A stretch of 64,000 nt of DNA from Spirochaetae bacterium HGW-Spirochaetae-3 (lineage in GTDB: Bacteria > Spirochaetota > Spirochaetia > Treponematales > UBA12059). The stretch covers positions 62,001-126,000 of the forward strand of contig PGXV01000005.1 of NCBI GenBank assembly GCA_002839315.1, given 5' to 3'. The position numbers and the translations under genes were made by a program. Below are positions 13,619 through 26,384 of this stretch, in pieces; the first letter of the stretch is position 1, and each line of letters starts with the position of its first letter. The notes beneath the pieces are model-generated. The model did no database searches. It was given only the letters and a program-made list of their open reading frames with translations, and was not told where the DNA came from.

Positions 13619-13655
13619 GACCTCGCGCGATTGAACGACGATGGAGGCCGGAACG

Positions 13656-15176
13656 ATGAGCACTCCCATTCTGGAGATGAAGAATATTACGAAGACCTTT
13701 CCGGGGGTCCGCGCGCTCAGCGACGTCAGCTTCCGCGTAACCCCAGGAGCGATACACTGCCTCGTCGGTGAGAACGGCGCGGGCAAGTCCACCCTTATGA
13801 AGGTATTGAGCGGGGTGTATCCGTACGGTGATTACACCGGCGACATACTCCTCCGTTCGGCGCCCCAGAAATTCCGGGGTATAGCGGATAGCGAGCGGGC
13901 CGGCATAGGCATCATCTACCAGGAGCTAGCCCTGGTCCCCGACATGACCGTGTTCGATAACATCATGCTGGGGCACGAGATAAAGAACGGATTAACCGTA
14001 GATCTGAACGAGACGATAAAGAAAGCCACCGAGATGCTGAAGAAGGTACGGCTCGACCTGAATCCCTCGACCAAGGTCAAGGATCTCGGGGTCGGCAAGC
14101 AGCAGCTCGTGGAGATAGCGAAGGCGTTGAGCCGCGACGTGAGCATACTGATCCTGGACGAACCGACGGCGGCGCTTAACGAGGACGATTGCGACAATCT
14201 CCTGGACATACTCCGAGCGCTCAAGCGCGACGGGGTCACGTGCATCATGATCTCCCACAAGCTCAAGGAGGTCATACGGATAGCGGATACCGTTACCGTG
14301 CTGCGCGACGGCCAGACCGTGTGCACGCTGGACGCGGCGAGCGGGGAGGTGTCGGAAGGCGTGCTTATAAAGCACATGGTCGGCAGGGAGATAGACGACG
14401 TCTATCCAAAGCGCGAAAAGAAGATCTCCGACGAGGTCGTGCTCGACGTCAAGGATTGGACGGTATTCTCTCACGGCCTCGGCCGGACCGTCCTCAAGGA
14501 CGTCAATTTCCACGTCAGGAGGGGCGAGATCGTCGGCTTCGCCGGGCTGATGGGCTCGGGCCGGACCGAGCTGGCCAGGAGCGTGTTCGGCAATCCGGAC
14601 GGCTATCGCATAGCTGGCGAGGTAGCCGTGGAGGGCGTGCCGAAGCGCTTCTCCGAGCCGAGGGCCGCGATAGACTCGGGCGTCGCCTATGTCACCGAGG
14701 ATAGGAAGAAGAACGGGCTGATACTGATACAGGACGTCAAGCAGAACGTCACGCTGGCTAACCTCCGCTCCCTGGCGAGCCGAGGCGTCGTCGACGCGAA
14801 CGGCGAGACTAAGGTGGCGGAGGATTACCGCGCCGCGCTGGCTATCAAGACGCCGAGCATCGGCCAGACGGTCGTTAACCTGTCCGGAGGCAATCAGCAG
14901 AAGGTGTCGGTGGCCAAGTGGCTCTTCGTAAAGCCCAAGGTGCTGATCCTGGACGAGCCGACGCGCGGTATAGACGTCGGCGCCAAGTACGAGATCTACA
15001 CGCTGATGAACCGGCTGGTGGACGAGGGGATGAGCATCGTGATGATATCGTCGGAGCTACCCGAGATCCTGGGCATGAGCGATCGTATATACACCGTTTC
15101 CAGCGGCAGGATTACCGGCGAGCTGGCGATCAAGGACGCTACCCAGGAAAAAATCATGCAACTGGCAACGAGCTGA
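13656..15176 (+). CDS. gguA: Multiple-monosaccharide ABC transporter, ATP-binding protein (second copy)
   Basis: A double-ABC ATPase of about 506 residues, paralogous to the one at 2081, with Walker [10 protein letters not shown], Walker [11 protein letters not shown], a second-half signature LSGGNQQK and [11 protein letters not shown] place the start at ATG 13656 and not at the in-frame ATG 13641. The 13641 codon is itself part of the sequence ATGGAGG, which is a good Shine-Dalgarno site 8 nt before 13656, and the alignment with the paralogue begins just after it. It works with ChvE (12460) and the permease (15187). Confidence 0.93.
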   Translation: MSTPILEMKNITKTFPGVRALSDVSFRVTPGAIHCLVGENGAGKSTLMKVLSGVYPYGDYTGDILLRSAPQKFRGIADSERAGIGIIYQELALVPDMTVFDNIMLGHEIKNGLTVDLNETIKKATEMLKKVRLDLNPSTKVKDLGVGKQQLVEIAKALSRDVSILILDEPTAALNEDDCDNLLDILRALKRDGVTCIMISHKLKEVIRIADTVTVLRDGQTVCTLDAASGEVSEGVLIKHMVGREIDDVYPKREKKISDEVVLDVKDWTVFSHGLGRTVLKDVNFHVRRGEIVGFAGLMGSGRTELARSVFGNPDGYRIAGEVAVEGVPKRFSEPRAAIDSGVAYVTEDRKKNGLILIQDVKQNVTLANLRSLASRGVVDANGETKVAEDYRAALAIKTPSIGQTVVNLSGGNQQKVSVAKWLFVKPKVLILDEPTRGIDVGAKYEIYTLMNRLVDEGMSIVMISSELPEILGMSDRIYTVSSGRITGELAIKDATQEKIMQLATS

Positions 15177-15186
15177 GGAGGAACCC

Positions 15187-16374
15187 GTGATATTTAAGGA
15201 TTTACGTACCGCCGTGCGGAGCAATATCAGGGAATACGGCATGTACATAGCGCTCGTGGTCATCATGGGAATTTTTACCATTACCACGGGCGGCGTGTTC
15301 ATATCGTCCCGCAATATAGCCAACCTGCTGAACCAGACCGGTTACATAGCGGTGCTCGCTATCGGCATGACGCTGGTCATCGTGATTCGCCATATAGACC
15401 TATCGGTCGGCTTCCTGTCGGGATTCCTCGGCGCGATAGCCGCCATAGCGATGACCGCATGGGGCTTTCCCGCGTGGGCGGCTATCCTGGCGGCGCTGGC
15501 GATGGGTACGCTCGCGGGCCTGCTGACCGGATTCCTCGTCGCGAACGTGGGCATCCCCGCGTTCGTCGCGTCGTTGGCCGGATGGCTCATATACCGCGGA
15601 GCCCTGCTGCTCGTGACGCTCAAGACGGGGACGATCATCATTCCCAGCAAGTTTTTCAATGCGATAGGGAACGGGTACCTGCCCGATATTTTCCCGGTGG
15701 ACAGCACGTTCCTGCCCGACCTGCACAAACTGACGCTGCTGATCGGTATCCTGGCTATAATCCTGTTCAACTTCCAGTCGCTCCGCGATCGCAAGAATCG
15801 ACAGACCTACGGCTTCGAGGTTCCGCATTCTGATATGTTCGTTATGAAGCTCGTCTTCATATCGATCGTGTTGGGCCTTATCACTTGGGTAATCGCTGGA
15901 TATAACGGCATGTCGTGGACCCTGGCCATCGTGCTCGTCGTAGTGATGGTCTACCATTTCGTCACGACCAAGACGGTGCTCGGGCGGCACATCTACGCCG
16001 TCGGCGGCAATCCGGAGGCGGCCGAGCTCTCAGGGGTAAGCGTCAAGAAGATAACGCTAATAGTATTCGGATCCATGGGGCTCATGTGCGGGCTCTCGGG
16101 CATCCTCTTCGCGTCGCGGCTCCAGTCCGCGACGACGACGGCGGGGACGCTGTTCGAGCTGGACGCGATAGCCGCGGCGTATATCGGCGGCGTATCGGCG
16201 GCCGGCGGCGTAGGCAAGGTGACGGGATCCCTGATAGGCGCCATCGTCTATATGTCCCTGACGAGCGGCATGAACCTTATGGGTACCGATATCTCCCTGC
16301 AGTACATCATACGCGGCGCGGTGCTCGTCGCCGCCGTGGTGTTCGACGTGACGACGCGCAGGGCCAAGTCGTGA
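15187..16374 (+). CDS. gguB: Multiple-monosaccharide ABC transporter, permease (second copy)
   Basis: A 395-residue polytopic inner-membrane permease related to the one at 3618. It keeps the family blocks AIGMTLVIVIRHIDLSVG, LGRHIYAVGGNPEAAELSG and LDAIAAAYIGGVSAAGG. It starts with GTG at 15187, preceded by GAGGAGGAA. It closes the second sugar operon. Confidence 0.93.
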   Translation: MIFKDLRTAVRSNIREYGMYIALVVIMGIFTITTGGVFISSRNIANLLNQTGYIAVLAIGMTLVIVIRHIDLSVGFLSGFLGAIAAIAMTAWGFPAWAAILAALAMGTLAGLLTGFLVANVGIPAFVASLAGWLIYRGALLLVTLKTGTIIIPSKFFNAIGNGYLPDIFPVDSTFLPDLHKLTLLIGILAIILFNFQSLRDRKNRQTYGFEVPHSDMFVMKLVFISIVLGLITWVIAGYNGMSWTLAIVLVVVMVYHFVTTKTVLGRHIYAVGGNPEAAELSGVSVKKITLIVFGSMGLMCGLSGILFASRLQSATTTAGTLFELDAIAAAYIGGVSAAGGVGKVTGSLIGAIVYMSLTSGMNLMGTDISLQYIIRGAVLVAAVVFDVTTRRAKS

Positions 16375-16565: not shown

Positions 16566-17804
16566 GTGAATACGCTGCGCCGCATCTACGAAGATTACAG
16601 GGAAGCCTTCAAGTCTTTCAGTCCGAACGCCCGCCGATTCCTCGCGGGGATGTTCCTGTTGGGCATAGGGGCGAACCAGATCAGCCTCCTTTTCAGCCTG
16701 TACCTGAAACGGCTGGCGTATACGGAAGCCGGCATAGGGGCGGTGCTATCGACCCGCGCGCTCGGGTCGACGCTTATCGCGCTGCCGGCGTCAATGCTCG
16801 CCGCCCGCTTCGACCCGCGCAGGCTGCTACCGGTCGCCGCCGCGATGACGGCCGCGGCCTACGTCGCGCAGTCGCTGTCTACCGCGGGGGCCGCGATAAG
16901 CGGGGCCGTATTCCTGGCCGGCGCCCTGTCAACGATATTCCAGGTAAGCGCCGGGCCGTTCTTCATGCGCAACTCGGGCGAGCTAGAGCGCCAGCACCTC
17001 TTCAGCCTGAACGGCGCGCTGGTAATGGGTACGGGCCTCGTCGGCTCGCTGCTCGGCGGCGGGCTCAAGGACGGCCTCGTGGCCATCGGTTTCGACGAGA
17101 TACTCGCGTACAGGGCGGCCCTCCTCGCCGGCGCCGCTTTCGTATTAGCCGCCGTCGTTCCATTCTCGCGTATAGCGCCGACACCCCTCGCGCCGCGCGC
17201 CCCCGGCGTTCGTGTCGGGCGCCTTGACGGCATAGACGTCGCGCTATGGGCGAAGCTGATCATACCGAGCTTCCTCGTCGGCATGGGGGCGGGCCTGACC
17301 ATCCCGTACCTCAACCTGTACTTCAAGGACGTCTTCGGCATGAGCGACGCCTGGATAGGCGCGGCGGTCGCGGCGGGACAGATCTCCACCTTCGTCGGTA
17401 TCGCCGCCGGCCCGCTCCTGGCCAAGCGACTCGGCAAGCCGCGGGCGGTATTCTGGACCCAGATCCTGTCCGTGCCGCTGATACTCGTCCTCGGCTGGGT
17501 CCGCGCCCTGCCGCTCGCCCTGCTCGCGTACTTCGCGCGGCAGGTGCTCATGAACATGTCGGCGCCGATACAGGATAACTTCGCGCTGGAGCTGGTGCCT
17601 CCGGAGCGCCAGAGCCTGCTCAACGCCGTCAAGATGCTCTCGTGGACGGGTAGCTGGACGGTAGCGGCCAGGGTCTCAGGCGAGCTCATCTATAGGGGCG
17701 GATTCGCGACGTCGTTCGCGTTGACCGCGGCGCTCTACCTCGCCTCGACCGTATGCTACCGGGCGTTCTTCATTCCCCGCCGCCGCGTCGGCCGGAGCGA
17801 TTAG
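16566..17804 (+). CDS. Major facilitator superfamily transporter
   Basis: A 412-residue membrane protein with about twelve hydrophobic segments. It has an MFS-like loop after helix 2-3 (ARFDPRRLLPVAAAM, a variant of the GxxxDRxGRR motif) and a central cytoplasmic loop near residue 210. It starts with GTG at 16566, and I see no good ribosome site. It is a single-gene unit that converges on the fusion gene at 17817 with only 12 bp between the stops. The substrate is unknown. Sugar or drug efflux are both possible in this broad family. Confidence 0.82.
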   Translation: MNTLRRIYEDYREAFKSFSPNARRFLAGMFLLGIGANQISLLFSLYLKRLAYTEAGIGAVLSTRALGSTLIALPASMLAARFDPRRLLPVAAAMTAAAYVAQSLSTAGAAISGAVFLAGALSTIFQVSAGPFFMRNSGELERQHLFSLNGALVMGTGLVGSLLGGGLKDGLVAIGFDEILAYRAALLAGAAFVLAAVVPFSRIAPTPLAPRAPGVRVGRLDGIDVALWAKLIIPSFLVGMGAGLTIPYLNLYFKDVFGMSDAWIGAAVAAGQISTFVGIAAGPLLAKRLGKPRAVFWTQILSVPLILVLGWVRALPLALLAYFARQVLMNMSAPIQDNFALELVPPERQSLLNAVKMLSWTGSWTVAARVSGELIYRGGFATSFALTAALYLASTVCYRAFFIPRRRVGRSD

Positions 17805-17816
17805 GCGCCTCCGTGC

Positions 17817-20800
17817 CTACGGCGCGGGATCGAGCATCGTTATGCCCGGCAGCGACATACGCTCCATGTACTCGAGGAAAGCCCGAGGCCCGGAAGACAG
17901 GTGAAGCCTGGATCCCGGCACTCCGGGACGATACCGGTCCTCCTCGCTGCAGACGACGGTAAGTACGCCGCGATCGATGGCCCGCCTCAGCGCGGCCTCT
18001 CCCTCCGTCGTCGCTCCTTCCGCGATATGGGCGGGGCCAGCCCATAGCACGGTACCCGCGTCGTCCAGATCCCGGGAAAGGTCCCCCTGATCCGGTTGAA
18101 GTACGAGTCGGTCGGGGAATGTCGAGCTGAGCGACTCTATCATCGCCGCCGTCGCCCGCGGATCCGCGCGCGGCCTCCGGTCGAGTACGGCCAGCCTGGC
18201 GACGCGCGGCAGCAAGGCCGCCATCACCCCGAACTGGGCGCTGATATCGTCGCCGCAGAATACCGCGACGAAAGGGGCCGCGGGTTCGTCGAGCAGCGTC
18301 TCGAGGACGGCTAGCTCCCTGGCGACCAGAGGGCCGGCGAGCCTGCGCTCGCAGAAGCGGGGAACGCCGGTGATGCTCGCGTGACGCCGGTGGCAGACGT
18401 TGAAGGCGTCGTTGATGAAACAGCCTTCGCCCAATTCAGCTAGCGAGCGCGAGAAGGTCTCGTCGTTGTCCTTCTCTCCGGTCGCGAAGCGCAGGTTCTC
18501 CAGCAGATTGACGGATCCCGCTTCCATGTCCCTGCCAGAGACGAGCAGGCCCGAGGAACCGACGCTCGTCTCGTGGAACGCGAATCGCCCGCCCAGCTCG
18601 GCGCTCAGTATATCGGCCGCCGGCCTCAGGCTATAGTCGTAGTAGAGTTCCTCCCGCGATCGGAGAGAGCCGGGAACGGCTCCGGGGTCCCCGATATGGG
18701 AGCAGACGACCGGCGTGGCGCCGCGATCCAACAGCATGCGCAGCGTGGGCGCCATGCGCCGGACGCTCTCCGGATCGACGACGCGGCCGTCGGCTATTCC
18801 CACGTTGGCGTCGACGCGCACGAGCACGCGCCTCCCTTCCAGCCCGCGGGCGTCTTCGATGCCCGCCCGGCGAAGGTTCGTCTCGCGGCTCAGTCCGGAC
18901 ATCCTGTCGGCTATCAGCGCTCGGACCGCATCGGCGACCTCGTCCGCCGATGCGCCGGCGCGCGCGGCCGCCGAAACGGACGATATCGGCAGGAAGAATT
19001 CCGATATCGGGGCGAGCCCGCGGTAGACGGCTCCGGTATTGCCGTCGGCCGTGACGCGCTCGCCTTCCCGCACCGGAACCGAACCGGCGGAATGGAAAAC
19101 GACGCGCCTGCCCGCGAGGTCTATCTCGGCGTCGTCGCAGCCGACGATGCACGGCTTGTTGATTGACATAGCGGTTATCGCCGCGTGCGATGTCCTGCCC
19201 GGATAGACCGTTACTATGGCGTGAGCCCCGTTCATGATGGTGAAATCCGTCGGCTTCGTGGTATGGGCGAAGTAGACGACGCTCTCGCGTCGGCGTTCGG
19301 CCTCTTGTAGCCGTTCCTCGGTGAGCACGAGCGTGCCCGATACGACGCCGCCGTTTATCGGCACGCCTACGGTAAGCGGCGGGTTCCAGCGCCTGGACCG
19401 GAAATCGGCGCGGGGAAGGGCCACCGAGGCGTTGGCTAGCTCCAGCCTTTCCAGGCGATTGCGGTAGCGCCCCAGGTCTATGAGGCCGCGCTTGAGGAAA
19501 TCGGTGTCCGCGACGAGCTGGGCAAACGCGCCGAGCCTGGCCGCCCGGGTCTGTAGCAGGTACAGCTCCCCGTCCTCGACGGTGAATTCCAGGTCGAGGT
19601 CCTGCTTGAAATGCTCCACGAGCCTCTGCTTGCATTCGTCCAGCTTGACGGCGATACCGGGCTCGATACCGGCGATCGACTCGGTGCCCGCGCTGCCCAT
19701 CACGACTTCCTCGCCTTGCGCCAGCCATTTGAAATCGCCGAATAGACAGTCCTCGCCGGTGATGGGATTGCGCGTAATTACGACGCCGCTCAGGGAATCC
19801 TCGTTCAGGTTGCCGAAGACCATGCGCTGCACGGTCACCGCCGTATCCGCCCTGACGTTCGTCGCGAGCGTCCTCGAGAACGCGTCTACCGCCCGCGATT
19901 TTCGGGAGGCGTATACCAGGCGTATAGCCTGGAGAAGCTGGGCCCGCGGATCGGAGAGGAAGCCGGGGCCGAGCGCGGCCGTCAGGTAGGCCTCTAGATC
20001 GTCCGGGAGCGCGCCTGCGTTATCCGCTTCCCCTGCCGCCCGGGCCGCCACCGCGCCCGCGCAGTTCTCGAGGAATCGGCGATACAGCGAATTCGCGAAC
20101 GGCGCGCCGGCGCGCCTGCCCAACGCCTCGCGGACCTCCGGTACGAGCCCCACGTTAAGGACGGTGATCATGACGCCGGGCATCGATACCGGGGCGCCCG
20201 ACCGGACCGAGACGATCAGCGGGCGCTCGGGGTCGCCCAGCCTGCGCCCGCAGCGGCGCTCGAGCTCGGCTAGCTGCGCATCCACGATGGATACGAGCGT
20301 CTCGTCGAGCGGGTCGTCGGCTTCGCAGGAGGCGAAGAGGGGGAAGCCCAGGATGAAGGCGGGCGGTACGCGCAGCCCGAGCCTGGCCATATCGATAAGG
20401 CCGTTTCCCTTGCCGCCGAGGGTCGGCCGTACGCGGTCGTCGACGTCGCGCCAGGTAGCCGCGACGCAGTATTCACGGGCGGGCTTGCCTCCGTCCCCCG
20501 GCTCGCGGTAATCGGCGTACAGTTGCATGCTGGCGCTCTGGCGCTCGAGTTCCTTGTCCACCGCGGCGGTCACCTTCTCCACGAACTCGGAGAGTACGTG
20601 TATCTGGGTACGGCGGATGAAGTTGTTGAAGAAACGCGTCTTGATGGGCGACAGCCTGGAGGTAGGCACCTCGTAGGCCTCGAGTACGCGGTTCAGCGTG
20701 CCGCTCATCTTTCCTATGATGTCGGACTGCAAGTAGCGTTGCACCTCGTCGCAGATGGAGCCGAGGCAACGCTTCGCCCGGATGTATTCGTGGGTAGACC

Positions 20801-21848
20801 GCTCGCATATATCCTCGAGCTCCCGTTGGCGCCGTTCGACGTCGCCTATGGCCAGGCCCTTTACCGTAGAAATATTCAGGAGCTCCCCGATGACCCCGAG
20901 CGCGGCCTTGCCGTTGCGCGGCGTCACTTCGAGGAAATGGTTATTGGTCAGGTCGTTCGCGAGCAGGAAGATGAGCCGACCGAGCGAAAGGTCGACGAGC
21001 AGCATGTCGTAGAGGCCTATACGGGACTCGCCGTAGGATTCCTTCAGGACGCGCTTGAAGGTCGCGATCCGCCTGAGCATATCCATCACGAGATGCTGCC
21101 GGCTCAGGCACTCCGGCGTCAGCATCTCCAGGAAGCCCTGCATCTCGGCCTTGAGGAAGCAGCGCTCGAACAGGGGCATGTTCTGCGATAGCGATCGCTT
21201 GACCTCCGCCAGGTCTCCTGCGCCGTAGTCCCACAGGTAGCTCAGGCGCTCGTGCAGGTCATTGGCGATGTCGATGAACGAAGAGGACTCGTCATCGCGG
21301 GAGAAGCGGCTCGGAAGGGCTACGTAACCGGCCCGCATGATAGGCTCGGGATCGCCGTGCTCGACGAGCGCTAGATAAGGGTCCAGATAGGCACTTATGA
21401 TGCGAGGCGAAAGGCGGCGGTGGACCTCTTTCCGCAGGTCGCCGGCGAATCCGCGCATCGGGTCGTCCTCGGCGCGGTCTTCCTCGAAGGCCTCGGCAGC
21501 CATCCTGATCTGCTCTATCATGTTCTCGGAATCCTGCCGTACCGGCAGCTTCTTGAGAACCTCGCGCGCGTAATAGATGAATTTAGCCGAAGGGGCCGCC
21601 ACCGAATCGAGGGTCTCCCGCGTGCGGCGTTCGAGCGCGGCGTATATCGACTCGATATCCCCGCTTCTCGTGCGCCGGTCGCGTATAGCCTCGTCCTGGC
21701 CGAGCAGGCGCAGGTTGACGAGCAGTTCGATGAGCAGCGCTATCTTTTCCGCCTCGTCCGAGGCGTCGCCGACGCGTCCGAGCCGTTCGAGTATAGCGTC
21801 CCATGTATCGAGCCGCGGCGACGCGTACGCCGGATCCTTGATGTGCAT
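17817..21848 (-). CDS. Fusion of PPDK-like ATP-grasp and phosphohistidine domains with a PGK-like domain
   Basis: A 1343-residue protein. Residues 1-470 are helical and unrecognised. Residues about 475-790 are the ATP-grasp domain of the pyruvate phosphate dikinase/PEP synthase family (LGGKGNGLIDMARLGLRVPP, then SVRSGAPVSMPGVM, and TRNPITGED). Residues about 825-945 are the swivelling phosphohistidine domain, with the catalytic-type motif PGRTSHAA (H888) and NKPCIVGC. The PEP/pyruvate-binding TIM barrel that normally follows is absent. In its place, residues about 1000-1343 resemble phosphoglycerate kinase: RVLVRVDANVG, CSHIGDP (for SHLGRP), LLENLRFATGEKDND, INDAFNVCHRRHAS, TVLWAGP, HLSSGPRAFLEYM and LPGITML. 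The PGK nucleotide motifs GGAKVSDK and GGGDS are not conserved. I chose ATG 21848 because the longer open frame upstream is the shadow of the small gene at 21869-22144. The reaction is unknown. A phosphohistidine enzyme with an unusual acceptor domain is the most direct reading. Confidence 0.85.
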   Translation of the reverse strand: MHIKDPAYASPRLDTWDAILERLGRVGDASDEAEKIALLIELLVNLRLLGQDEAIRDRRTRSGDIESIYAALERRTRETLDSVAAPSAKFIYYAREVLKKLPVRQDSENMIEQIRMAAEAFEEDRAEDDPMRGFAGDLRKEVHRRLSPRIISAYLDPYLALVEHGDPEPIMRAGYVALPSRFSRDDESSSFIDIANDLHERLSYLWDYGAGDLAEVKRSLSQNMPLFERCFLKAEMQGFLEMLTPECLSRQHLVMDMLRRIATFKRVLKESYGESRIGLYDMLLVDLSLGRLIFLLANDLTNNHFLEVTPRNGKAALGVIGELLNISTVKGLAIGDVERRQRELEDICERSTHEYIRAKRCLGSICDEVQRYLQSDIIGKMSGTLNRVLEAYEVPTSRLSPIKTRFFNNFIRRTQIHVLSEFVEKVTAAVDKELERQSASMQLYADYREPGDGGKPAREYCVAATWRDVDDRVRPTLGGKGNGLIDMARLGLRVPPAFILGFPLFASCEADDPLDETLVSIVDAQLAELERRCGRRLGDPERPLIVSVRSGAPVSMPGVMITVLNVGLVPEVREALGRRAGAPFANSLYRRFLENCAGAVAARAAGEADNAGALPDDLEAYLTAALGPGFLSDPRAQLLQAIRLVYASRKSRAVDAFSRTLATNVRADTAVTVQRMVFGNLNEDSLSGVVITRNPITGEDCLFGDFKWLAQGEEVVMGSAGTESIAGIEPGIAVKLDECKQRLVEHFKQDLDLEFTVEDGELYLLQTRAARLGAFAQLVADTDFLKRGLIDLGRYRNRLERLELANASVALPRADFRSRRWNPPLTVGVPINGGVVSGTLVLTEERLQEAERRRESVVYFAHTTKPTDFTIMNGAHAIVTVYPGRTSHAAITAMSINKPCIVGCDDAEIDLAGRRVVFHSAGSVPVREGERVTADGNTGAVYRGLAPISEFFLPISSVSAAARAGASADEVADAVRALIADRMSGLSRETNLRRAGIEDARGLEGRRVLVRVDANVGIADGRVVDPESVRRMAPTLRMLLDRGATPVVCSHIGDPGAVPGSLRSREELYYDYSLRPAADILSAELGGRFAFHETSVGSSGLLVSGRDMEAGSVNLLENLRFATGEKDNDETFSRSLAELGEGCFINDAFNVCHRRHASITGVPRFCERRLAGPLVARELAVLETLLDEPAAPFVAVFCGDDISAQFGVMAALLPRVARLAVLDRRPRADPRATAAMIESLSSTFPDRLVLQPDQGDLSRDLDDAGTVLWAGPAHIAEGATTEGEAALRRAIDRGVLTVVCSEEDRYRPGVPGSRLHLSSGPRAFLEYMERMSLPGITMLDPAP

Positions 21849-21868: not shown

Positions 21869-22144
21869 CTACCGGCGGCCCGGCTTCGTCCTGCCCTCGC
21901 CGAAGTACTTCTCGCTGCGGTACCTGAGCCATACGAGGAGGACCTGCGGGATCTTCTTCTTCTGCTCCGGAGACAGCCTGGCGTATAGCTGTAGCGCCCT
22001 GTCCCGCTCGGCCCTGCAGGCCCCGTTCTCGTGGGCGTCCCAGTGGGAGCGCGCCAGCCGGATGAGGCGAGAGGTTTCCTTTATGAGCGCTTCCCCCGAC
22101 AGCTCGGGAGCGTCCTTCTTTTCCACCCCGCGAGTATACGGCAT
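21869..22144 (-). CDS. Small charged protein of unknown function upstream of the fusion gene
   Basis: A 91-residue, highly charged, probably helical protein (SRLIRLARSHWDAHENG, LSPEQKKKIPQVLLVWLRYRSEKYFGEG). No family is recognised. It is 20 bp upstream of the dikinase/PGK-like fusion and on the same strand, so the two are probably co-transcribed. The start may be ATG 22144 or the GTG seven codons further in. A TATACT box lies across the first codons on this strand and would favour the later start. Coding is supported by the operon position and by the stop just before the next start. Confidence 0.6.
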   Translation of the reverse strand: MPYTRGVEKKDAPELSGEALIKETSRLIRLARSHWDAHENGACRAERDRALQLYARLSPEQKKKIPQVLLVWLRYRSEKYFGEGRTKPGRR

Positions 22145-22697: not shown

Positions 22698-23786
22698 CTA
22701 GCCCCGGTCCTCGGCCGTCCTCCTGCCCGGTAGCAGCCAGGACGGCAGCGCGAGCCTGAAATCGCCCCTGCCGCGCAGCCACACGACGACGCTCTGCAGC
22801 ACGATGAAGACGTACAGCAGGAACCCGCTCACGATGGCCTGGTAGTTGGAGTTAACGCCCGCGGCGCGTATCAGCTCGTTAATCGTCAGCAGGGTTAACG
22901 CCCCGACGGGCGAGCCGAACAGGTTCCCGACGCCGCCCGTCAGCATCGTGCCGCCTATTATCGCCGCGGCTATGGCCTTCATCTCGAAACCTGCCGCGTT
23001 TCCGACGTTGCCGGCTCCCGTCGTCATGATGTACACGAAGCCCGCGATGCCGGACAGCAATCCGCATAGCGCGTATGAATAGAATTTCGTCCTCCTCACG
23101 TTGATGCCGAGCATCAGGGCGCTCTGGCTATTACCGCCCACGGCGTAGAGGTTGCGGCCGAAGCGCGACCACTTCATGACGACGACGAGGATGACGATCA
23201 GGGCCGCCGCGATGACGGCGCCCGGCTTGATCTCGAGAGGGATGAAGTTGCCCAGCCTGTTCTTCGTGCCGAGCCAGGGTATCACTAGCTCGAAGTCCCG
23301 CAAGGAGACGAAAGCCGGCAGGGTCACGTTGAGCGGATCCTTGTGGATCGTCGTCAGCAGCCCGTTGGCAAGGAACATCCCCGCCAGCGTTATGATGAAC
23401 GGCTGTATCTCGAGATAGGAGATGAGGTAGCCCTGCAGGAGGCCGAACGCGACGCCTATGCCCAGCGCGAGGAGTACGGCGCTCCAGACGCTCCCCGTTC
23501 CCGACTCCAGTAATACGGCGCAGCACATCGTCACGAGGCCGGTCACCGCGCCTACGGAAATATCGATGCCGCCTCCGATCATGACGATGCTGATGCCGAG
23601 CGTTATGATGATGAGCGGGGCGTTCAGGCTGAACAGGTCGAAGAAGGTCTGGAACTGCAGGAAGCTGCCCGGGTATCGCAGGATGGCGAACCCGTACATG
23701 AGTACGAATATGACCGCGGCGATGAGGAACAGCAGGTTGGAATTCGATATCGCGTCTTTTGGCTTGCCGGCATTCAGGGATCGCAC
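22698..23786 (-). CDS. yjfF: Galactofuranose-type sugar ABC transporter, permease YjfF
   Basis: A 362-residue BPD_transp_2 permease. It carries the family blocks LGISIVMIGGGIDISVGAV, LEIQPFIITLAGMFLANG, RNLYAVGGNSQSALMLGINV and EMKAIAAAIIGGTMLTGGVG. It starts with GTG at 23786, with GGAGGT 5 nt upstream, immediately after the ytfT stop. It is the last gene of a ytfQ-R-T-yjfF operon and forms the membrane channel with YtfT. The galactofuranose assignment comes from family resemblance. Related systems take other sugars. Confidence 0.88.
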   Translation of the reverse strand: MRSLNAGKPKDAISNSNLLFLIAAVIFVLMYGFAILRYPGSFLQFQTFFDLFSLNAPLIIITLGISIVMIGGGIDISVGAVTGLVTMCCAVLLESGTGSVWSAVLLALGIGVAFGLLQGYLISYLEIQPFIITLAGMFLANGLLTTIHKDPLNVTLPAFVSLRDFELVIPWLGTKNRLGNFIPLEIKPGAVIAAALIVILVVVMKWSRFGRNLYAVGGNSQSALMLGINVRRTKFYSYALCGLLSGIAGFVYIMTTGAGNVGNAAGFEMKAIAAAIIGGTMLTGGVGNLFGSPVGALTLLTINELIRAAGVNSNYQAIVSGFLLYVFIVLQSVVVWLRGRGDFRLALPSWLLPGRRTAEDRG

Positions 23787-23787
23787 T

Positions 23788-24885
23788 CTATACCTCCATC
23801 TTCGCTGGAGCGTCCGGGCCTGAAGCCGCCGTGTCCGCCTCCGCTACGGCGCAGTCGTCCGCCCCGGCTCGTACCCGTCTCAGGGCCTTCGAGGCGTATT
23901 CCCTGACGACGGGCGACGCGACTACCATCAGGATGATTATGAATACCGCCTTGAAGGCCTTGATCGTCTCGGTACCTATTTCCAGCCTGAGCAGGGTCCT
24001 GCTAAGCACCTCGATGGTATACGCGCCGATGATGGAGCCGGTGACGCTGAACTTGCCGCCGGAGAGCGCGTTGCCGCCTATCGCCACGGCGAGGATCGCG
24101 TCCATCTCGACGAACTTGAGCAGGTTGACGCTGTCGTGCCGCCCCGCCTTGGTGACCGCGATGAAACCCGCTACCGCGGAGCAGACTCCCAGGATCATGT
24201 AGGTCAGGAACTTTATCCTCGTCGGGTCGATGCCGTTCAGGCGCGCCGCCTTCTCGTTTATTCCTACCGACTCCGCGTAGAGCCTGAGGTTCGTGGTCTT
24301 GAGCAGCGCCGCGAACAGCGCGATGAAGACGACGGTAAGGATTATCGGCGTCTGTATCGGCACTCCCGGTATAACGCCGCCTAACTGGCTCGTCAGGTCG
24401 TTCGCCAGCACGGGGGATAGTTTGCCGTCGATCATGAACGCGATAGACCTGCCCGCCGTGAATAGTATTAGGGTAGCGACCATGGGCTGGACCTTGAATA
24501 CGGCGACCAGCGAGCCGTTGAACGCGCCGATGAGCATCCCCGCCGCGCAGCTCGCGAGGAAGCTAGCCGCGATGGTCCACCACGTTATGTCGCCGGCTCC
24601 CTGGAGGACCTGGACGAAGACGGCCGAGGTGATGGCGGCCGCTACGCCTACGCTTATGTCCTGGCCGCGCGACGACGCGGTTACCAGGGTCATGCCTATC
24701 GCCAGGATGACCAGTTCCGAGGCGCCGAACAGTATATTCGGGACGTTACCGTACAGGGCGCCGTTTATGATGGTCATGCTGAAGTAGTCGGCGCCCTTTA
24801 TCAGGTTTATAACGATGAGGATAGCCAGGACCGACAGGGGGAGGAACAGATGGGACCCGCGCGCCTTCGTCTTGACCGTGCTCAT
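23788..24885 (-). CDS. ytfT: Galactofuranose-type sugar ABC transporter, permease YtfT
   Basis: A 365-residue polytopic permease with the YtfT-like blocks [16 protein letters not shown]-type (here [20 protein letters not shown]), GQDISVGVAAAITSAV, GINEKAARLNGIDPTRIKF and EMDAILAVAIGGNALSGG. It overlaps the ATPase gene by 4 bp (ATGA) and is followed directly by yjfF, so translation is coupled through the operon. Confidence 0.88.
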   Translation of the reverse strand: MSTVKTKARGSHLFLPLSVLAILIVINLIKGADYFSMTIINGALYGNVPNILFGASELVILAIGMTLVTASSRGQDISVGVAAAITSAVFVQVLQGAGDITWWTIAASFLASCAAGMLIGAFNGSLVAVFKVQPMVATLILFTAGRSIAFMIDGKLSPVLANDLTSQLGGVIPGVPIQTPIILTVVFIALFAALLKTTNLRLYAESVGINEKAARLNGIDPTRIKFLTYMILGVCSAVAGFIAVTKAGRHDSVNLLKFVEMDAILAVAIGGNALSGGKFSVTGSIIGAYTIEVLSRTLLRLEIGTETIKAFKAVFIIILMVVASPVVREYASKALRRVRAGADDCAVAEADTAASGPDAPAKMEV

Positions 24886-26384
24886 GCTTCCCCCCGCGCT
24901 ATCACGTGCATGACGTCGCTCTGCGTCAAATTCGTACCGGAAAGCTCACCGACGATCTGTCGGTCCTTCATGACTATCAACCTGGAGCAGGTCCTGAGCA
25001 TTTCCTCGATCTCGGACGATATGAACGTCACGCTGACCCCGTCCTCGGCTAGCTTGAGCACGAGTTTCTGAATTTCCACTTTGGTGCCGACGTCGATCCC
25101 CCGCGTGGGCTCGTCGAGGATCAGGTAATCGGGGTGCGTGAGTAGCCAGCGGGCCAGGATGACCTTCTGCTGGTTGCCGCCGGAGAGTGACTTGATGGGC
25201 GTGTCGGTCGACGGCGTCTTGATGTTCAGGCTCCTTACGTATTCTTCGGCGAACGCCTCGGCCCGCTTTCGCGAGATGGGCCTGAGGAAGCCTTCCATGA
25301 CCTGCAAGGCCAGGATGATGTTGTCGCGTACCGATAGCTCGGCTATGATCCCGTCGCCCTTGCGGTCCTCCGGTAGATAGCCTATTCCCTGCTTCATCGC
25401 GTGCAGGGGCGCGCGGATCCTCACCCTCTCGCCGTTCATCCTGACCTCGCCGCCCTTGACCTTGTCGGCGGCGAAGATAGCGCGGACGCTCTCGCTGCGC
25501 CCGGAGCCGAGCAGCCCGATGAACCCGTTCACCTCGCCCTTCCGTATAGCGAAGTCGAAGGGCCTTATCCCGGCGTCGCTCGAGAGCGCCTTACCCTCGA
25601 ACACCGGGGCTTCCGCGTCTGACGCGAGCGGCTCGCGCCTCTTTATCTTCGCGACGTCGCCCAGCGCCTTACCCATCATCTTGGAGACGAGCTCGAACTG
25701 CGACAGCGACGCCGCCTCGTACTCGCCTATCAGCTCCCCGTTGCGGAGCACCGTTATCCTGTCGCTTATCTCGTATACCTGGTCGAGGAAGTGGGTCACG
25801 AAGACGATGCCCACGCCCCTGGACTTGAGCTCGCGCATCAGCGCGAAGAGCTTCTTCACCTCGTCCTCGTCCAGCGACGACGTCGGCTCGTCGAGGATGA
25901 GGATCTTGCAGTCCATGTCGATCGCCCGGGCTATCGCTATCATCTGCTGGACCGCGAGCGAGCAGCTGGAGAGCTGCTGGGTCGGCCTCACGGGTATGTC
26001 GAGGGAGTCGAGCAGCCGCGCCGCCTTCGCGTTCATCCGCTTCCAGCGGACGATGGCGTACCGGCCGCGGCCGATGAACATGTTCTCCGCGACGGTCAGG
26101 TTCGGGCACAGCGATATCTCCTGATAGACCGTGCCTATCCCTGTCTCCTGCGCTTCCTGCGGGGACCTGAAGTGTACCGGCTTCCCGTCCACCTCGACCC
26201 GCCCGGCATCCTTTTCGTAGACGCCCGTCATGACCTTTATGAGCGTCGACTTGCCCGCTCCGTTCTCGCCCATCAGGGCGTGGATCTCTCCCTTACGGAG
26301 CGCGAAGCCCACGTCGTGAAGGGCCCTGACCCCTGGAAAGGATTTGCATACGCCATGCATCTCGAGCACGTTCTCCGACCGCAA
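24882..26384 (-). CDS. ytfR: Galactofuranose-type sugar ABC transporter, ATPase YtfR
   Basis: A 500-residue double-ABC ATPase with Walker [10 protein letters not shown], signature region SLAVQQM, Walker [11 protein letters not shown], and in the second half [17 protein letters not shown] and [10 protein letters not shown]. The start is TTG at 26384, supported by GAAGGAGG 7 nt upstream and by alignment of the N-terminus. It hydrolyses ATP to drive uptake through YtfT/YjfF. Confidence 0.92.
   Translation of the reverse strand: MRSENVLEMHGVCKSFPGVRALHDVGFALRKGEIHALMGENGAGKSTLIKVMTGVYEKDAGRVEVDGKPVHFRSPQEAQETGIGTVYQEISLCPNLTVAENMFIGRGRYAIVRWKRMNAKAARLLDSLDIPVRPTQQLSSCSLAVQQMIAIARAIDMDCKILILDEPTSSLDEDEVKKLFALMRELKSRGVGIVFVTHFLDQVYEISDRITVLRNGELIGEYEAASLSQFELVSKMMGKALGDVAKIKRREPLASDAEAPVFEGKALSSDAGIRPFDFAIRKGEVNGFIGLLGSGRSESVRAIFAADKVKGGEVRMNGERVRIRAPLHAMKQGIGYLPEDRKGDGIIAELSVRDNIILALQVMEGFLRPISRKRAEAFAEEYVRSLNIKTPSTDTPIKSLSGGNQQKVILARWLLTHPDYLILDEPTRGIDVGTKVEIQKLVLKLAEDGVSVTFISSEIEEMLRTCSRLIVMKDRQIVGELSGTNLTQSDVMHVIARGEA

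Follow-up and report, generated by a model that had tools for sequence, protein, structure and literature searches.

In the family of PEP-utilising dikinases, the reaction carried out is decided by the acceptor domain, which in PPDK lies C-terminal to the phosphohistidine domain. A gene of Spirochaetae bacterium HGW-Spirochaetae-3, located in a window of 64,000 nucleotides (contig PGXV01000005.1, positions 62,001 to 126,000), raises the question of what such an enzyme may do when the place of the PEP barrel is occupied by a module derived from phosphoglycerate kinase (PGK), with the phosphoglycerate pocket kept and the nucleotide pocket lost. The gene runs on the minus strand at 17817..21848 of the window, with an ATG at 21848 and a stop codon at 17817-17819, and encodes 1343 residues in a single open frame, whose start agrees with the alignment of homologues. 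The initial annotation had placed an open reading frame at this interval, and that part holds; the strand, which it did not give, is the minus one, the plus-strand reading being full of stops.

The chain might in principle be the product of an assembly join or a frameshift between two separate genes, for which the initial annotation had pointed to residues 960-1000. The probability of this explanation is negligible, and it is excluded by homologues from other assemblies, which cross the linker at residues 949-998 in one frame. In particular, eight aligned homologues, all from one order of spirochaetes, are 53-71% identical to the window protein and share its architecture in a single frame; one of them is truncated at its N-terminus by a locus boundary. 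Among the other assemblies is a public record of a Spirochaetes bacterium MAG (VKGY01000014.1), whose protein is 60% identical to that of the window, and which came from a scan of public collections with single-sequence patterns that finds close relatives only. Homologous fragments are also present at contig ends.

From the N-terminus, the protein consists of an all-helical domain (residues about 10-445; 20514..21821, minus strand, as all features below), a PPDK-type ATP-grasp (about 464-800; 19449..20459), a swivelling phosphohistidine domain (about 830-948; 19005..19361), a variable linker (about 949-998; 18855..19004), a module like the PGK N-domain (about 999-1186; 18291..18854) and a degenerate one like the PGK C-domain (about 1187-1343; 17820..18290). 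The ATP-grasp is assigned by PF01326 (residues 520-720, the best of three stretches, E 1e-22), by TIGR01828 and by alignment to Clostridium symbiosum PPDK, while the phosphohistidine domain matches PF00391 over residues 855-939 (E 5e-16). The PGK N-domain is defined by PF00162 (residues 1002-1220, corresponding to profile positions 5-211 of 379, E 9.4e-52) and by comparison with 31 resident PGKs, and the C-domain by profile alignment to 1php and a residue table. A profile of the family matches PPDK structures over positions 471-958 (E 2e-88) and covers residues 2-393 of 1php (E 6e-46), so that both PGK lobes are present up to the C-terminus. The PPDK matches stop at the phosphohistidine domain (residue 507 of 1kbl) and PGK comes next; no family of the PEP/pyruvate TIM barrel was matched in Pfam or in the comparison of the family profile with structures. 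The two dikinase domains, the PGK-like region and the missing barrel, which had been read from the letters of the sequence, are thus borne out. The protein scores 311 bits against the PPDK equivalog TIGR01828, below the 843 bits of a full-length match, and 301 bits against the short PPDK model NF004531, below its cut-off of 456. A structure model of residues 450-1343 is poor (pLDDT 61, pTM 0.40), and a Foldseek search with this low-confidence model ranks PPDK and PGK at the top with low TM-scores; given this low confidence, domain geometry was left out of the analysis.

As for the dikinase half, alignment to C. symbiosum PPDK (1kbl) indicates that the fused protein and PPDK correspond end to end in the ATP-grasp and phosphohistidine domains, whereas the fusion lacks the PEP/pyruvate barrel, carries the PGK-like module instead and has 445 additional helical residues in front. 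Specifically, K480, R549, D752, E754, Q766 and R768 are invariant and are equivalent to PPDK K22, R92, D321, E323, Q335 and R337. H888, encoded at 19185..19187, lies in a PGRTSHAA motif that is invariant in 9/9 aligned sequences and pairs with PPDK H455 (GGMTSHAA). These PPDK residues, H455 included, have catalytic roles in that enzyme. As judged from its residues, the PPDK-type ATP-grasp is therefore intact together with His888, and the invariance of the catalytic equivalents leads us to expect ATP-dependent phosphorylation of H888.

The PGK-derived module was compared, in nine fused proteins, with the 31 resident PGKs. Identity to resident PGK is about 35% in the N-domain and 22% in the C-domain, and the columns that are invariant among residents are retained in all fused proteins at 24 of 74 N-domain and 6 of 78 C-domain positions. 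The phosphoglycerate-site residues R21, D23, N25, H62, R122 and R170 of PGK, here R1011, D1013, N1015, H1051, R1120 and R1154, are all kept in 9/9 fused proteins, in line with the 3-phosphoglycerate-type site envisaged by the initial annotation. Five of them (D23, N25, H62, R122 and R170) are published ligand residues of PGK (PMC7729029, PMC3900376). The published ligand list is retained above the N-domain background of 24/74 (P 0.004; P 0.012 without column 65). Position 65, an Arg in published PGKs, is Asp in the fused modules, as it is in the order's resident PGKs. This shared feature would agree with a module of spirochaetal origin, although a tree, which recovers a single well-supported clade of fused sequences on a long stem, does not resolve where it belongs. 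The nucleotide side tells the opposite story: N336 is replaced in 9/9 fused proteins, the loop GGGDS has lost its GGD in 9/9, and GGAKVSDK is gone as well, as had been proposed. In other words, both PGK lobes are recognisable and the module retains, by its residues, a 3-phosphoglycerate-type site and the hinge of PGK, but differs from PGK in the loss of the nucleotide site with its GGG motif and in being joined to a dikinase. As to the hinge, E1178 (PGK E192) and G1320 (PGK G394) are invariant in the fused proteins, and these two residues end the signal path from ligand to hinge published for PGK (PMC3900376).

What, then, is the module for? One possibility is that it acts as the acceptor domain, in which case phosphorylated His888 would swing to the N-domain site and phosphorylate the carboxylate of 3-phosphoglycerate, with the overall reaction ATP + Pi + 3PG = AMP + PPi + 1,3BPG, which could run either way. 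Judged by standard free energies, it would be near equilibrium. The position of the module, directly after the phosphohistidine domain like the barrel in PPDK, speaks for such a role, as does the retention of a phosphoglycerate site next to the loss of the module's own ATP site, which would call for a new phosphoryl donor. The charges that serve closure and transfer are less accommodating, and they add to what had been noticed before. Arg38 is needed for domain closure in PGK; six of the nine fused proteins keep it, a point in favour of an acceptor, but the window protein and both of its congeners have Ser instead. In place of Lys215, 9/9 carry Asp or Glu, and Lys219 is Gln in 8/9. With these charges gone and the ground-state ligand and hinge residues kept, the pattern is unfavourable to the acceptor idea. 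Moreover, this explanation leaves a highly constrained helical domain without a role, in a genome that already has a complete PGK. On balance an acceptor function of the module is rather doubtful. Its specific form, a diphosphate-linked phosphoglycerate dikinase in which the PPDK-type engine would phosphorylate 3-phosphoglycerate by way of a PGK lobe that has given up nucleotide binding, or run the reverse (1,3-bisphosphoglycerate + AMP + PPi -> 3-phosphoglycerate + ATP + Pi), appears unlikely. With the module as acceptor, these spirochaetes would have a new connection between triose phosphates and energy metabolism based on diphosphate.

The loss of K215, K219, N336 and GGGD, and of R38 in 3/9 proteins, would rather suit binding without catalysis. 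The reading that we favour, tentatively and with a probability of about 0.4, is that of a histidine autokinase of PPDK type in which the PGK-derived module would serve as a 3-phosphoglycerate sensor, the acceptor being handled by the helical domain. The ATP-grasp would phosphorylate His888 on the swivelling domain at the expense of ATP and probably, like PPDK, of phosphate; the N-domain site kept in the PGK-derived module would bind 3-phosphoglycerate or 1,3-bisphosphoglycerate; the retained hinge would transmit ligand binding, so that swivelling or phosphotransfer would track the triose-phosphate state of the cell; and the N-terminal helical domain would handle the acceptor, a small molecule or a protein, to which the phosphoryl group of His888 would be passed. 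We infer each of these steps, from the phosphorylation of His888 through phosphoglycerate binding and gating to the role of the helical domain as an acceptor site. The invariant ATP-grasp and histidine residues, the phosphoglycerate-site residues kept above background, the invariant hinge pair E192/G394 and the low dN/dS of the helical and phosphohistidine domains described below are consistent with this sensor function. In this case, an enzyme of glycolysis would have been recruited to sense a metabolite on behalf of a histidine phosphotransfer enzyme. Against it stand the position of the PGK module, which occupies the place that the acceptor domain has in PPDK, the Arg38 kept in 6/9 fused proteins, and a helical domain with neither a known acceptor nor a relative that could be found, whose high constraint does not show that it binds one. 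In addition, the C-terminal model is so poor that no geometry supports gating.

Constraint differs among the domains. Mean pairwise identity is 73% in the phosphohistidine domain, 63% in the helical domain, 57% in the ATP-grasp, 56% in the PGK N-domain and 44% in the PGK C-domain, and falls to 38% in the linker, where only 3 of 50 positions are invariant. Likewise, in three related genomes dN/dS is lowest in the helical and phosphohistidine domains (0.03-0.05), followed by the ATP-grasp (0.06-0.14), the PGK N-domain (0.09-0.12) and the PGK C-domain (0.14-0.17), and ranges from 0.14 to 0.44 when the window protein is compared with its nearest homologue, values that are rough because of near-saturated synonymous sites. 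Purifying selection acts on every domain, and none resembles decaying sequence. These figures bear on the idea that the PGK module has been reduced to a structural remnant that binds no ligand and is kept as a scaffold for the swivel. The C-domain does evolve fastest, with its 44% identity and its 6 of 78 resident-invariant positions; yet purifying selection on both PGK lobes (dN/dS 0.09-0.44) and the selective retention of the ligand site make a remnant very improbable.

The helical domain, whose place among the most constrained parts of the protein had not been noticed before, is the least familiar element. The unrecognised helical N-terminus of the initial annotation corresponds to about 445 residues, which AlphaFold models as all-helical, with 21 helices (pLDDT 84, pTM 0.78). 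Comparisons with Pfam, PDB sequences and folds gave no convincing relative, and the fold search returned only common helical arrangements with Z under 9, as is usual for helical proteins. A kinship with the helical domain of glucan water dikinase (GWD) was considered and found no support in sequence-profile comparisons, in which the GWD query was a plant sequence identical to PDB 9ha9 over 444 residues: hhalign was not significant, profile alignment with shuffles gave z of about 1-2, and sequence searches yielded no bacterial sequences that would bridge the two domains. 9ha9 is absent among the fold matches listed for the helical domain, although the structure library may not include it, given that GWD structures are still described as missing in a review of 2026. 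The helical domain thus represents a family under strong constraint for which no relatives are recognised, and its constraint, together with its exclusive pairing with the fusion, suggests that it is central to function.

A further explanation builds on this conservation. In Mycobacterium tuberculosis, the barrel-less PPDK relative VadK (Rv1127c) autophosphorylates its histidine and regulates a pathway (PMC13400623), so that barrel-less relatives of PPDK can act as regulatory histidine kinases, a precedent that also lends support to the sensor reading. VadK shares the PPDK ATP-grasp and histidine and the missing barrel with the fused protein, but it has about 50 kDa and neither the PGK nor the helical domain. 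The fusion might be a signalling kinase of this kind, in which partner proteins would, by way of the helical domain, receive the phosphoryl group of His888 or read its phosphorylation, and the PGK module would offer a docking surface instead of sensing a metabolite. The VadK precedent (PMC13400623), the strong conservation of the helical domain and the score below cut-off against NF004531 would all agree with it. This explanation, which leaves the selective retention of phosphoglycerate-site residues unaccounted for and finds no partner suggested by the gene neighbourhood, where no neighbour is conserved between genera, seems improbable. The ORF of 91 amino acids directly upstream of the fusion gene is not conserved either.

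PPDK, PGK, barrel-less PPDK relatives and PGKs fused to other domains and predicted to be dead are already known, the last from kinetoplastids (PMC7729029). The latter resemble the present module in being predicted inactive PGKs with additional domains, but they are eukaryotic, carry different fused domains and have no dikinase. A bacterial PGK fusion exists in Thermotoga (PGK-TIM, NF010569), where PGK is active and the partner is another one. Rifampin phosphotransferase, HpeHI and GWD likewise combine the logic of ATP-grasp and histidine swivel with an acceptor domain that is not the PEP barrel, but none of these acceptor domains matched the fusion in sequence. In GWD the histidine domain lies ahead of the ATP-binding domain, while in the fusion the ATP-grasp comes first. 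In the open papers searched, no description was found of a PPDK-PGK fusion, nor of the two together with an unfamiliar third domain; going by its sequence, the protein looks like a candidate for a phosphate-transfer or metabolite-sensing enzyme not described so far.

Of the 394 genomes searched in this spirochaete order, 11 carry the helical domain. They belong to four genera in two families, and the domain is confined to carriers of the fusion gene; one additional carrier (G033) is known by its C-terminal part alone. In a sample of 393 genomes of the phylum, its profile found no convincing match outside the order, and the weak matches are attributed to chance, their translations resembling other proteins such as phosphatase-like and cyclic-nucleotide-binding-like chains. 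Close relatives without the gene exist, so that its distribution is patchy. Finally, the initial annotation had proposed to look for separate pgk and ppdK genes, and these are present: the same genome encodes elsewhere a complete PGK (E 9e-147) as well as PPDK-like and PEP-synthase-like proteins, which identifies the fusion as a paralogue and not as a replacement. Of the 59 genomes searched for PGK, those that carry the fusion also have a separate PGK, in one of them (G053) only as contig-end fragments.

Arg65 of the published PGKs is a listed 3-phosphate contact (PMC7729029). At the corresponding site, the separate PGKs resident in genomes of the same spirochaete order (n = 31; L005, L056-L085) carry the motif SHLGDP, and the fused modules likewise have Asp at position 65.

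Some relatives encode a second, divergent PGK (L086, L087, L088, L089 and L090, from genomes G036, G044, G023, G004 and G034, respectively), with E values of ~1e-95 to 1e-117. In several of these loci, the gene adjoining the second PGK encodes a product whose sequence resembles archaeal-type (type II) GAPDH (VKVGVAGYGVIGQRLADG). Among the 59 genomes searched, co-occurrence of the divergent second PGK and the fusion was not seen, the cases being too few for inference.

Upstream of the fusion gene and on the same minus strand, a 91-aa ORF (21869-22144) ends ~20 bases before it; conservation of this ORF was looked for at related loci and not found. Genes for sugar-type ABC transporters, whose sequences read as ATPase and permeases, lie on each side of the fusion gene, one set at 13641-16374 and the other at 22698-26384, and an MFS-like transporter gene (16566-17804) is oriented towards it.
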